This document shows, one piece after another, positions 13,497 through 39,696 of a DNA stretch of 43,052 nucleotides (its first letter is position 1; every line of letters begins with the position of its first letter). The DNA lies in contig JAFTIE010000218.1 in assembly GCA_017457065.1 (NCBI GenBank), positions 1-43,052 on the forward strand, in the 5' to 3' direction. The notes beneath the pieces were generated by a model. The model made no database searches. It was not told the origin of the DNA and saw nothing but the letters and a program-made list of their open reading frames with translations. Origin of the DNA: Lentisphaeria bacterium (GTDB lineage Bacteria > Verrucomicrobiota > Lentisphaeria > Victivallales > Victivallaceae). A program made the position numbers and the translations under genes.

Positions 13497-14678
13497 ATGG
13501 ATTTCAGGATGTTAAATTTTTTCAACAAACGTAAAAAGCGCAAATTTTTAAGCGAATTGCGTGCCAGACGCCATGCCGAAGATGATCTTCTGACTCCGGC
13601 GCAGAAAGAGGAGTTTGACGGCGTCATCGCCGCTTTTGCCGGTTCCGACCCCAAAGATTTCAAAAACGCCGCCGCCGCTGCCCTTGAGAAGACCGGGCGC
13701 ATCGTGCCCGGTTACACCTGGATCAGAAATCTTCTCGATCTGCTCATCGTGGTGGGCGCCGTCGCCTTCGGCATCAGGGGACTCTTTTTTCAGCCCTTCA
13801 AGATCCCCACAGGCTCCATGCAGCCCACACTTTACGGGATCCACTACATGGAAAGCACCCCCCTCGGGAAAAATCTCCCCCCGTTTCTCAATTACGCCCT
13901 TTTTTCCGCCCGGCGCGCCCGTCTGGAGGTGAAGGAGTCAGGCGAAACACTCTTTCACAGCTATAAGAACGGTTTTTTCACTGACAGCGTTCTTTTTTCC
14001 ATCGGCAATGTCCGCTACAGCCTCCCCGGAGCTCCCCAGAAGGTGATGGAGTACTCAGGATTGGAAGAGGGCGCTTCCTGCAGCGCAGGTGAGATCAAAG
14101 CCGACGGATTCCTCTCTCTGGGGGATCATCTGTTTGTGGAACGCTTTTCCATCTATCTTTCCCCCCCGAAACGGGGCGAGGTGATGATCTTTACCACCGA
14201 CGGTCTGACCGTGGGCGGAGAACCCCTGAGCGCTTCATCGGGATTTTATTATGTGAAACGTCTGGTGGCGCTCCCCGGAGATACGGTACGGCTGAAAGAA
14301 AATCAACTCTATGTGAGACCCGCAGGAGAAAAAGAGTTCCGGAAGATCCAGGCTCTTGCTCCCCGGACGGCTCGGCTCTACTCCGGCAAGGGGGGATATC
14401 AGGGACATCTGAGCACCATGGGGGATTACCGGCTTTTCGGGGCGGAAGAGGATTATACAGTGCCCCCTGACCACTATTTCATGCTGGGCGACAACTCCAA
14501 TTTCAGTCAGGACAGCCGCTTTTTCGGCGCCGTCCCCCGGCGGAACCTGGTGGGGCGCAGTCTGCTGATCTTCTGGCCCTTCAGCCGCCGCTGGGGGATC
14601 ACGGACCGACTGGAGCCTCTGGACTATCCCACAGGGAGCCCCGTCAGAGGAACCTTCCCGGTAATGTATAAGCAGTAG
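13497..14678 (+). CDS. lepB: Type I signal peptidase
   Basis: A 393-residue protein. A cytoplasmic basic N terminus is followed by one membrane segment near 80-98 (LLDLLIVVGAVAFGIRGLFF) and box B PFKIPTGSMQPTL with nucleophile Ser107. Box D YVKRLVALPGD supplies general base Lys254, and box E is FMLGDNSNFSQDSRFFGAVPRRNLVGR. It cleaves secretory signal peptides at the outer face of the cytoplasmic membrane. About 147 residues separate Ser and Lys, much more than in short family members, so there is a sizeable periplasmic insert. ATG 13497 is kept although its Shine-Dalgarno is poor; ATG 13509 is an alternative. The stop codon TAG shares its G with the first base of a MITE-like element. Confidence 0.92.
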   Translation: MDFRMLNFFNKRKKRKFLSELRARRHAEDDLLTPAQKEEFDGVIAAFAGSDPKDFKNAAAAALEKTGRIVPGYTWIRNLLDLLIVVGAVAFGIRGLFFQPFKIPTGSMQPTLYGIHYMESTPLGKNLPPFLNYALFSARRARLEVKESGETLFHSYKNGFFTDSVLFSIGNVRYSLPGAPQKVMEYSGLEEGASCSAGEIKADGFLSLGDHLFVERFSIYLSPPKRGEVMIFTTDGLTVGGEPLSASSGFYYVKRLVALPGDTVRLKENQLYVRPAGEKEFRKIQALAPRTARLYSGKGGYQGHLSTMGDYRLFGAEEDYTVPPDHYFMLGDNSNFSQDSRFFGAVPRRNLVGRSLLIFWPFSRRWGITDRLEPLDYPTGSPVRGTFPVMYKQ

Positions 14679-14843
14679 AGGCAATTTCAAAACTCCTCAA
14701 AATTGTCAAAGTGCCCTCTTCTTCGATCTGATAAAGGGAGCGTTTTCAGCTGTTACCCTGCAGGTAGCAGCTTCAAACTACCCTTTCCAGCTCTTTGCGA
14801 ATGGCATCTTTGCCATTTTTTGAATGACTTTTGAAATTACCTC
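14678..14843 (+). mobile_element. MITE-like element, copy 1
   Basis: 166 bp bounded by GAGGCAATTTCAAAA and TTTTGAAATTACCTC, which are inverted repeats with one mismatch; the match continues imperfectly inward for about 35 bp (TCAAAATTGTCAAAG against TCAAAAAATGGCAAAG). Internal palindromes include TACC CTGCA GGTA and AATGGCA TCTT TGCCATT. AGTA flanks both ends, consistent with a 4-bp target duplication. No coding capacity, so non-autonomous. About 90% or more identical to the copy at 24268. Confidence 0.8.
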
Positions 14844-14874
14844 AGTAAATTTGCTGTTTTTTTGATATAAATAC

Positions 14875-14903
14875 TTGACAAAACCGCTGAGTGCGTGTAT
14901 GTT
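14875..14903 (+). promoter_or_regulatory. Strong promoter for the TPR-protein operon
   Basis: Perfect TTGACA (14875-14880), 17-bp spacer, TATGTT (14898-14903), 32 bp before ATG 14936 and just outside the MITE-like element. Confidence 0.7.
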
Positions 14904-23114: not shown

Positions 23115-24032
23115 ATGAAAAAAATTTCTGCCGTCGCTCTTCTCCTTTGCTGCGGGTTTTTCACTCTCAGCGCCAAAGAGCTGAAGGTCCTCATGATCGG
23201 CAACAGCTTTTCCAACAGCGTCCTCCGGTATTTACCCAAACTGGTGGAAGCCGGGAAGGTTCACAAACTCAAACTCGCCAACGCCTACATCGGCGGATGC
23301 ACTCTGGAGCGCCACTGCTCCAACATCGATGCCGAAAAAAGCAAACCTGATTTCAAGCCCTACTCCTATGTCATCGTGGGCGCCAAAGGCCGCAAAGCCA
23401 AGCTCTCTGAAATGATCAAAGACGACAAGTGGGACATCATCACCATCCAGCAGGGCAGCCGCCACAGCCCCTATAAGGAGAAAACCCACGATTACGCCAA
23501 AAAACTTATCGCTTTTGTGAAAAAGCTTGCTCCCCAGGCGGAGATCGTGGTCCATCAGACCTGGGCATACCGTGCCGATCACCCCTGGTTCACCGGAAAA
23601 GATGCCAAACTCACCCGTCAGAAGATGCACGAAATGCTCACTGCCAACTACACCGGACTTGCCAAAGCCCACAAGTTCCGTATGATCCCCGTGGGCAATG
23701 CGGTGCAGCTTTTCCGTGAAAAGCTCCCCGTCAAGGAGGTAAAGTACACCCCTGCCGATCTGAAAAAGCTCAAACAGCCTGCCGTCATTGATGTCACCGG
23801 CGGCGATGTGGTGGGCAAGATGAGCTGGAAAATAAACCGCAATACCAAAAAAACTGCTCTTTCCAACGACCGTATCCACCTCAACGACAAGGGAGCATTC
23901 CTCCAGGGATGCGTCTGGTACATGGTTCTCTTTGATGCCAAAGCTTCTGATATCAAACTGCCCTGCCAGAGCCCTGACGCCAAACTGCTCATCAAATGCG
24001 CCGAAGAAGCTGTCACAGCTTTGAAAAAATAA
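23115..24032 (+). CDS. DUF4886 (SGNH-like) secreted protein B
   Basis: A 305-residue tandem paralogue of the preceding gene, 12 bp downstream. It has a signal peptide (MKKISAVALLLCCGFFTLSA), KELKVLMIGNSFSNSVLRYLP with the GNS block, WDIITIQQGSRHS, VVHQTWAYR, and C-terminal DRIHLNDKGAFLQGCVWYMVLF with Asp and His of the presumed triad. By eye a little over half the residues are shared with copy A. AAGGAAACAACAGG precedes the ATG. The 3' end is followed 3 bp later by a MITE-like element. Confidence 0.82.
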   Translation: MKKISAVALLLCCGFFTLSAKELKVLMIGNSFSNSVLRYLPKLVEAGKVHKLKLANAYIGGCTLERHCSNIDAEKSKPDFKPYSYVIVGAKGRKAKLSEMIKDDKWDIITIQQGSRHSPYKEKTHDYAKKLIAFVKKLAPQAEIVVHQTWAYRADHPWFTGKDAKLTRQKMHEMLTANYTGLAKAHKFRMIPVGNAVQLFREKLPVKEVKYTPADLKKLKQPAVIDVTGGDVVGKMSWKINRNTKKTALSNDRIHLNDKGAFLQGCVWYMVLFDAKASDIKLPCQSPDAKLLIKCAEEAVTALKK

Positions 24033-24035
24033 GTT

Positions 24036-24265
24036 GAGGCAATTTCAAAACTCCTTAAAATTGTCAAAGCGCTCTCTTCTTCGATCTGATAAAGGGAGCG
24101 TTTTTCCGCCTTCCCATAAAGCTGCGGCGGGACAAGCACCTGTTACCTTTCCCCCTCCGCATAAAGCTACGGCGGGACAAGCCAGGCAGCATGTGCAAAC
24201 TACCCTTTACAGCTCTTTGCGAATGGCATCGAAAGCCATTTTTTGAATGACTTTTGAAATTACCG
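24036..24265 (+). mobile_element. MITE-like element, copy 2 (expanded)
   Basis: About 230 bp. It has the same left end (GAGGCAATTTCAAAA) and a right end TTTTGAAATTACCGC. The middle is replaced by two near-identical 23-bp units, at 24115-24137 and 24160-24182 (CATAAAGCT-R-CGGCGGGACAAGC), each closing a GC-rich stem. Near the right end, AATGGC ATCGAAA GCCATT keeps a stem while its loop differs from copy 1. It abuts copy 3 in the same orientation, and it starts 3 bp after the DUF4886 stop. Confidence 0.78.
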
Positions 24266-24267
24266 CT

Positions 24268-24432
24268 GAGGCAATTTCAAAACTCCTCAAAATTGTCAAA
24301 GCGCCCTCGCTTCGATCTGTTAAAGGGAGCGTTTTCGGCTGTTACCTTGCAGGTAGCAACCTCAAACTACCCTTTACAGCTCTTTGCGAATGACATCTTT
24401 GCCATTTTTTGAATGACTTTTGAAATTACCTC
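24268..24432 (+). mobile_element. MITE-like element, copy 3
   Basis: 165 bp, complete with both terminal inverted repeats (GAGGCAATTTCAAAA and TTTTGAAATTACCTC), closely matching copy 1 at 14678. It lies directly after copy 2 in the same orientation, so the pair is a tandem array. The outer flanks of the pair share GTT (24033-24035 and 24433-24435). Confidence 0.8.
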
Positions 24433-24626
24433 GTTCATCTTTGATTACAGCCCCCCGGGACAGCCTCCGGCTGATTGCCGGAGAGCTCAGTTGTTCGCAC
24501 TTTCACTCCATTTGCGCCTTGGGGCGCCCCCCCGCTGACCGAAACGTCGGCTCCGATGTACGCAGCGGCTTATTCTGTTCCACCTCTCATAACATCTTTT
24601 TTCTTTTGTATCTTGGAACGGGTATC
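24433..24626. other. Intergenic stretch without recognised gene
   Basis: GC-rich first half with one clear stem, CTCCGG (24465-24470) and CCGGAG (24478-24483), not followed by a T run. GCGCC/GGCGC around 24515 is a second small stem. Six-frame translation shows nothing resembling a protein. The function is unknown; it may be a remnant of further inserted repeats. Confidence 0.5.
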
Positions 24627-38786: not shown

Positions 38787-39680
38787 ATGAAACATTTCTC
38801 GAAAAGATCCCTCTCTGACGGTCTGCAGAGCAGTAAACGCTCCGGCAGATTCACGCTGATCGAACTTCTGGTGAGTGTAACTTGTCAAATAGGTGTTTTG
38901 CCGTTGTATTACCTCAAGAAACAATCAAAAAAAATGCCTTATAATGCTTGCGAAGCAAGCGCTTCATGCACTGAAAGTGCGCTTCATATTTTCCGCAGGA
39001 AAATGCTTCATACGGCGGAGCCGTGCTTCATTCGATCAGCGTTCACGCTGATCGAACTATTGGTTGTGATCGCAATAATTGCCATTCTTGCCGCCATGTT
39101 GCTGCCCGCTCTGCAGCAAGCACGGGCAAGAGCCCGGGAAACCGCCTGTATGAACACCCTTTCCCAGCTGGGGAAATACTGGACCATGTATATTGACCAG
39201 TACCACAATGTTCCCAAATACAACCCTTCCAATGATACCAGCTGGTCTGTCAAGATCGGTGAATACATCGAACCCAATAGCAACAACAGCTTTTTCCGGA
39301 TCTACAAGACGGGAAAGCGGGGGAAATTCACCTGCAGTGACTGGATCACCTGGCGTCCTCCGTCAAGCATGACTTACGATTATGAGACCGGCTGGGGGTA
39401 CAATGTGACCATCAACTCATCTACTACCTCAAGTTATTACAGAAAATGCACCTTCCCCACCCGTCTCATGCTCATGAGCGACGGCCGTGCCAATATCAAC
39501 GGCGTGGAAACCGCGACCATGACCAATTTTTTCTATCTTCACAGCGGCAAGGCAAATATGCTTTTCTTTGACGGTCACGCCGCCGCCCGCCGTCCGGGAA
39601 CATTCCGCACCAACGGGGGACTTTCACCCTTCTGGATCCCCACGCTCCCCGGGAACTACTACCACAACAGAACAGATTGA
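38787..39680 (+). CDS. Prepilin-type pseudopilin with hairpin element in its leader
   Basis: A complete 297-residue gene. The native N terminus is [21 protein letters not shown], followed by FTLIELLV (38850-38873). The inserted 64-codon unit comes next, then a second FTLIELLV (39042-39065) that leads into [23 protein letters not shown], the genuine pilin helix. Cleavage before Phe at 39042 (context RSA/FTLIE) gives a mature protein of about 212 residues; cleavage at the first site would leave [16 protein letters not shown] instead of a helix. The C terminus has [20 protein letters not shown] (H-X9-DG type). It probably forms part of a type II secretion-like pseudopilus. It lies 62 bp upstream of the DUF4838 protein and may be dedicated to its export or display (inference). 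Confidence 0.88.
38850..39041 (+). repeat. 192-bp hairpin-array unit, copy 2
   Basis: Same length and register as copy 1. Hairpins: GCTTGC/GCAAGC (38946-38960, loop GAA), GCACT/AGTGC (38968-38980, loop GAA), ATTTTCC/GGAAAAT (38988-39004, loop GCA), ACGGC/GCCGT (39012-39024, loop GGA). Each is followed by GCTTCAT. The fifth hairpin (39032-39055) uses the downstream TLIE codons. The third stem has T-A where copy 1 has G-C, changed on both arms. Confidence 0.9.
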
Positions 39681-39681
39681 T

Positions 39682-39696
39682 GAGGCAATTTCAAAA
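39682..39696 (+). mobile_element. Solo terminal repeat of the MITE-like element
   Basis: An exact 15-nt match to the left end (GAGGCAATTTCAAAA), one base after the pseudopilin stop (39678-39680). No right end follows before the next gene, so it is a deletion remnant. A TTGACA at 39703 follows, but no good -10 accompanies it. Confidence 0.65.

Follow-up and report, generated by a model that had tools for sequence, protein, structure and literature searches.

What governs where a small mobile repeat comes to rest in a bacterial genome, and does it belong to the ends of genes? The question is raised by a 43,052-nt stretch (the whole of it is called the window here) from a Lentisphaeria bacterium of the family Victivallaceae (assembly GCA_017457065.1, contig JAFTIE010000218.1), in which a short palindromic element abuts several stop codons. 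The sequence-only reading of the window had called the element MITE-like (MITE, miniature inverted-repeat transposable element), placed it invariably at gene ends and suggested that it might serve as a transcript 3' end. What repeats is indeed a MITE, a non-autonomous transposon of an ordinary and already known type. The element lies between genes of every layout, and its placement at gene ends is a statistical preference and no rule. The family is numerous, has a likely mobiliser and shows an excess at stop codons that can be measured but is not exclusive.

The source assembly (3.52 Mb in 272 contigs, 90% complete) contains 353 exact copies of the 15-nt end, and the reversed control sequence is absent. 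With up to three mismatches allowed there are 178 left-type ends, and with up to two there are 182 right-type ends; the family comprises roughly 180 copies. A BLAST-type count (43 matches) was dropped as a copy number, having scored 40 of 325 candidates. The copies examined, from 140 stretches and the window, are a sample of all copies in the source genome; 80 stretches plus the window yielded 73 paired copies, 15 right-only ends and 10 left-only ends. The paired copies are short and non-coding, about 164-260 bp overall with no room for a transposase gene, and all 73 are bounded by the 15-bp terminal inverted repeats. They fall into size classes near 165, 198 and 230 bp, the two larger classes being due to added palindromic modules of ~32 bp (CCGCC...GGCGGGACAAGC), one or two in each longer copy (window 24036-24266; L241 1501-1697; L262 1610-1807). 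Among 71 copies for which both flanks are available, 44 have exact target duplications (4 bp in 32, 5 bp in 12), against 1.75 and 0.3 expected from shuffles. Thirty-seven copies of 164-166 bp share 95.8% identity on average and 99.4% at most; with no two of them identical, a very recent burst is not indicated. The label MITE-like therefore stands on the ends, the 4-5 bp duplications, the copy number, the empty sites and the matching insertion sequence (IS) described below.

There are also mini-derivatives of ~32-51 bp that consist of little beyond the two ends back to back (L233 1501, L272 1645, L285 1597, L012 about 1484-1515), and lone ends occur at places other than the one in the window (39682-39696). 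Among the left ends listed, 26 of 100 have matches that start 104-107 bases from a contig start (e.g. contigs C3, C8 and C15 of the source genome, G000), because the repeat breaks the assembly.

The copies in the window and the genes around them are as follows.

14678..14843, + strand: MITE copy 1, 166 bp, ends GAGGCAATTTCAAAA / TTTTGAAATTACCTC
14674..14677, no strand: left target duplication of copy 1, AGTA, 4 bp
14844..14847, no strand: right target duplication of copy 1, AGTA, 4 bp
24036..24266, + strand: MITE copy 2, 231 bp, long form, right end altered to TTTTGAAATTACCGC
24268..24432, + strand: MITE copy 3, 165 bp, head-to-tail with copy 2
39682..39696, + strand: lone 15-bp left terminal repeat, interior and right end missing
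13497..14678, + strand: signal peptidase gene, lepB-like (Peptidase_S26); copy 1 is inserted in its stop codon
14936..16339, + strand: TPR-repeat protein gene, downstream of copy 1
23115..24032, + strand: DUF4886 protein gene, upstream of copy 2
38787..39680, + strand: pseudopilin-like gene (N_methyl), upstream of the lone end

The exact left end lies at 14678, 24036, 24268 and 39682, and the partner (right) end at 14829-14843 and 24418-24432, with one change at 24252-24266. Counting up to three mismatches, the window holds 13 ends against 2.5 expected, a number reached in 0 of 100 shuffles. Copy 2 contains two added palindromic modules, at roughly 24105-24136 and 24150-24182. The three full copies and one remnant reported earlier, with their shared ends and palindromic fold, are confirmed at their coordinates, and copy 1 folds as a single hairpin across its full length (-57.4 kcal/mol, z -6.25). 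The distances to stop codons had also been read correctly: the final base of the lepB stop TAG (14676-14678) is the first base of copy 1 (-1), the DUF4886 stop ends at 24032 (left end of copy 2 at +3), and the pseudopilin stop ends at 39680 (lone left end at +1). However, 'always' was wrong, as copy 3 (24268), which had been left out of these distances, has a left end separated by 235 bp from the closest stop upstream.

The TPR gene is found in 33 of 34 genomes of the genus, and in five of the 30 loci compared (the source and four others) lepB lies upstream of it; the remaining 25 have no lepB match within the stretch covered. In all four syntenic genus members the lepB-TPR gap is 100-153 bp and lacks the element, against 257 bp in the source. 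Copy 1 is thus a lineage-specific insertion into the lepB stop codon, and the family as a whole is dispersed and multi-copy, with this orthologous site empty. A TTGACA box between copy 1 and the start of the TPR gene is conserved in the relatives, and the host lepB is closest to those of metagenome-assembled gut genomes of Lentisphaeria/Victivallaceae. One other insertion is common to the source and the related genome G048 (identical flank in L039 and L257). The 15-nt end is present in 46 of 78 genomes of the family and 88 of 197 of the class, with 1 to 353 copies per genome, and four genera, of those inspected in the family, contain 164-167 bp elements whose interiors are related. Class relatives G166, G171, G172, G170 and G123 carry 121 to 241 ends each.

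A candidate for the enzyme that moves the element is found in low-copy relatives, which contain an IS of 1.3-1.4 kb with ends GAGGTAATTTCAAAA / GAGCCAATTTCAAAA, matching those of the MITE. One copy (L187) encodes a 371-aa transposase with DUF772 (E 2.5e-11) and DDE_Tnp_1 (E 7.8e-15) domains, both past the Pfam cut-offs. The best NCBIfam matches are to IS1182 (E 4.3e-29) and IS5_4 (E 3.2e-18), but both miss the curated cut-offs (101.8 of 270 bits and 66.1 of 140 bits, respectively); judged by sequence, the IS appears IS5/IS1182-like, with scores below the curated family thresholds. Matches occur in 22 of the 78 family genomes, with near full-length copies free of stops in G067, G063 (three), G065, G012 and G003, and two IS copies are flanked by 4-bp duplications, ACTA (L203) and ATGT (L224). 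Because the IS and the MITE share both their ends and the length of their duplications, the IS of the related genomes is likely to mobilise the MITE in trans. An autonomous element with the same ends is present in related genomes, and none was found in the source. There, a PF01609 search gave a single match, a decayed IS4-like transposase fragment, which was discarded as mobiliser; a copy of the MITE sits within this fragment (L171 1431-1660), beside a gene that resembles one for alanyl-tRNA synthetase. The open reading frames read around two lone ends (L005, L008) and the 32-bp derivative (L012) of the source genome include no transposase.

Placement relative to genes was scored with gene calls from a purpose-made codon-usage script, in which stops are sure within the frame and starts less so. 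The flank test left out flanks shorter than 300 bases and those that met another element within 60 bp; the window copies, which had prompted the idea of gene ends, are among those counted, and P values are uncorrected for multiple tests. Of 63 copies with two flanks, three lie within genes, three have a neighbour on one side, and 57 are scorable. These lie between divergent (20), tandem (28) or convergent (9) neighbours, and the nearest gene boundary is a stop for 29 and a start for 28. The earlier reading had named copies scattered relative to genes as the observation that would speak against it, and scatter is largely what is seen.

At the level of flanks the source genome gives 74 facing stops, 125 facing starts, 13 inside genes and four unassigned (216 in total), with 77.9 stops and 121.1 starts expected. 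Two further genomes give 16 stops, 31 starts and two unassigned (G048, 49 flanks) and 18 stops, 18 starts and one inside (G034, 37 flanks). The preference is confined to the immediate neighbourhood of the stop codon. Stops within 10 bp number 19 against 6.7 expected in the source, 5 against 1.2 in G048 and 5 against 0.7 in G034 (Poisson P 7e-5, 0.008 and 0.0008), whereas starts within 10 bp number 0 in all three, against 7.3, 1.5 and 0.7 expected. When only distances of 0-10 are counted and one shared insertion is removed, 18 remain against 8.6 expected (P 0.003). The left end contributes more: in two genomes it lies within 10 bp of a stop in 17 of 124 cases, against 6 of 116 for the right end (Fisher P 0.029, a modest value), and it faces a stop at any distance in 55 of 124 against 34 of 116 (P 0.017). 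The genome-wide search with the 15-nt end, which the sequence-only reading had proposed as a check, thus bears out a preference for gene ends in the excess within 10 bp, stronger for the left end, and fails to do so in the overall share of stops, most flanks facing starts. At several near-stop junctions (the slash marks the point of insertion) T/GA or TA/G of the element creates the stop, and these include truncated genes (L048, L104), unlike lepB, whose stop codon existed before the insertion.

Two simple causes of this excess were tried and rejected as sufficient. A target matrix built from 39 sites gives an expectation within 10 bp of 0.021 against 0.035 for the left end, and of 0.037 against 0.035, about equal, for the right end. 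Loss of copies near starts, in its simple form (exclusion of positions within 40 bp of starts), leaves 7.3-7.9 expected against the 19 found.

The hairpin was followed in an alignment of 19 elements of 164-167 bp from eight genomes. The consensus has 44 pairs, 12 of which show changes on both sides, and cells with both-side changes number 71, against 27.6 in shuffled alignments and 4-10 with the partners slid; as the rows form few related groups, independent events are fewer than these 71 cells. Compensatory changes maintain the full-length hairpin in the different subfamilies. Paired changes could also come from template-switch repair of palindromes. Constraint on the hairpin as RNA is unsupported, since among minority pairs in 37 source copies G-U (1) is not in excess over A-C (6). 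A simple consensus scan for intrinsic terminators (GC-rich stem and T run) found none in 14650-14900 or 24000-24480, and Rfam 15 has no match in the window at gathering score.

Taken together, these results are, with high probability, those of a MITE moved in trans by an IS-type DDE transposase and surviving where it is harmless, its excess at stops arising through tolerance. Most likely, an IS5/IS1182-like element that has these 15-bp ends supplies a DDE transposase, which acts on the MITE ends and would insert the MITE into AT-rich sites, leaving 4-5 bp target duplications. Copies would then survive where they are harmless, in the spaces between genes and away from ribosome-binding sites. 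Landing in a stop codon or directly behind it would do no damage because both ends start with GAG, so that T/GA or TA/G still reads as a stop, and because the 4-5 bp duplication restores the sequence previously at the insertion point. Tolerance, perhaps with a mild orientation-dependent preference, would yield the stop-codon excess, and the hairpin would most likely be kept for a role at the DNA level or through mutation that perfects palindromes, and not as a terminator. Several observations weigh against this account. Target matrix and start exclusion each fail to explain the excess, and pure tolerance is unproven; nor does pure tolerance predict the left-end bias within 10 bp of stops, because both ends start with GAG. 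Furthermore, a clean 4-bp duplication is seen in only two of the five IS copies with both ends and flanks (L202, L204 and L208 lack it), and the transposase of the matching IS was not found in the 90%-complete source assembly, which gave only the decayed IS4-like fragment.

Other explanations were weighed as well. That the transposase or its complex actively prefers the surroundings of stop codons, or the 3' ends of transcribed genes, would account for an excess that recurs in three genomes and is left unexplained by matrix and start exclusion. However, the overall ratio of stops to starts is as expected, some near-stop cases are truncated genes whose stop the element itself made, the stricter count lowers the excess, and the matrix rests on 39 sites, while surviving copies cannot separate targeting from tolerance; active targeting is unlikely. 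A narrower proposal, which we consider quite unlikely, is that the left end docks at stops: insertion itself, beyond survival, would be directed, in a single orientation, towards the ends of translated genes, and the GAG terminus would remake the stop. A family that docks in this way would do its host little harm and could multiply to hundreds of copies. The role suggested by the sequence-only reading, in which the element forms transcript 3' ends as an intrinsic terminator or RNase-blocking hairpin and is selected downstream of genes in one orientation, would fit the more frequent facing of stops by the left end, both within 10 bp and at any distance, and a strong hairpin kept by compensatory change. 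It finds no support in the terminator scan of the two stretches, in the Rfam search of the window or in the minority pairs, which run the reverse of what RNA constraint would give. Moreover, 20 of the 57 copies have divergent neighbours, so that no gene finishes at the element, and the excess is limited to the first ~10 bp, though a terminator could do its work at any point of the 3' region. Such a role is distinctly improbable. Lastly, intergenic position, palindromy and high copy number recall REP/BIME-like or ERIC-like extragenic palindromes spread by another route, but defined 15-bp terminal repeats common to an IS and 4-5 bp duplications make this very improbable indeed.

For this MITE family of a little-studied gut phylum, the analysis supplies a likely mobiliser, a target duplication of measured length and a distribution across class genomes, and the repeat explains many contig breaks in such assemblies. 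The stop-codon excess in three genomes offers a testable case of a mobile element coexisting with a gene-dense genome.

The family resembles bacterial MITEs in being short and non-coding, with terminal inverted repeats, target duplications, many copies, a full-length hairpin and an autonomous IS whose ends match. Correia, RUP and BOX elements are likewise small interspersed repeats of bacterial genomes, and the likeness to them is by description only. The partner IS shares the DUF772 and DDE_Tnp_1 transposase of the IS1182 and IS5 families and differs in scoring under their curated cut-offs. The open-access literature searched yielded no description of this family's sequence or host group, and Lentisphaerae appear in the available portion of one paper only within a reference (PMC5771137). 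The nearest parallel in that literature, going by the excerpts of its description, is QMITE2 of Coxiella burnetii, which lies mainly in 3' untranslated and intergenic regions and of which an in-frame copy at a gene 3' end alters the stop (PMC5896051). The two are likened by description and not by sequence: QMITE2 has duplications of 7-11 nt against 4-5 bp in the Victivallaceae MITE (PMC5896051), and the 3'-end placement of the latter is only a local excess.
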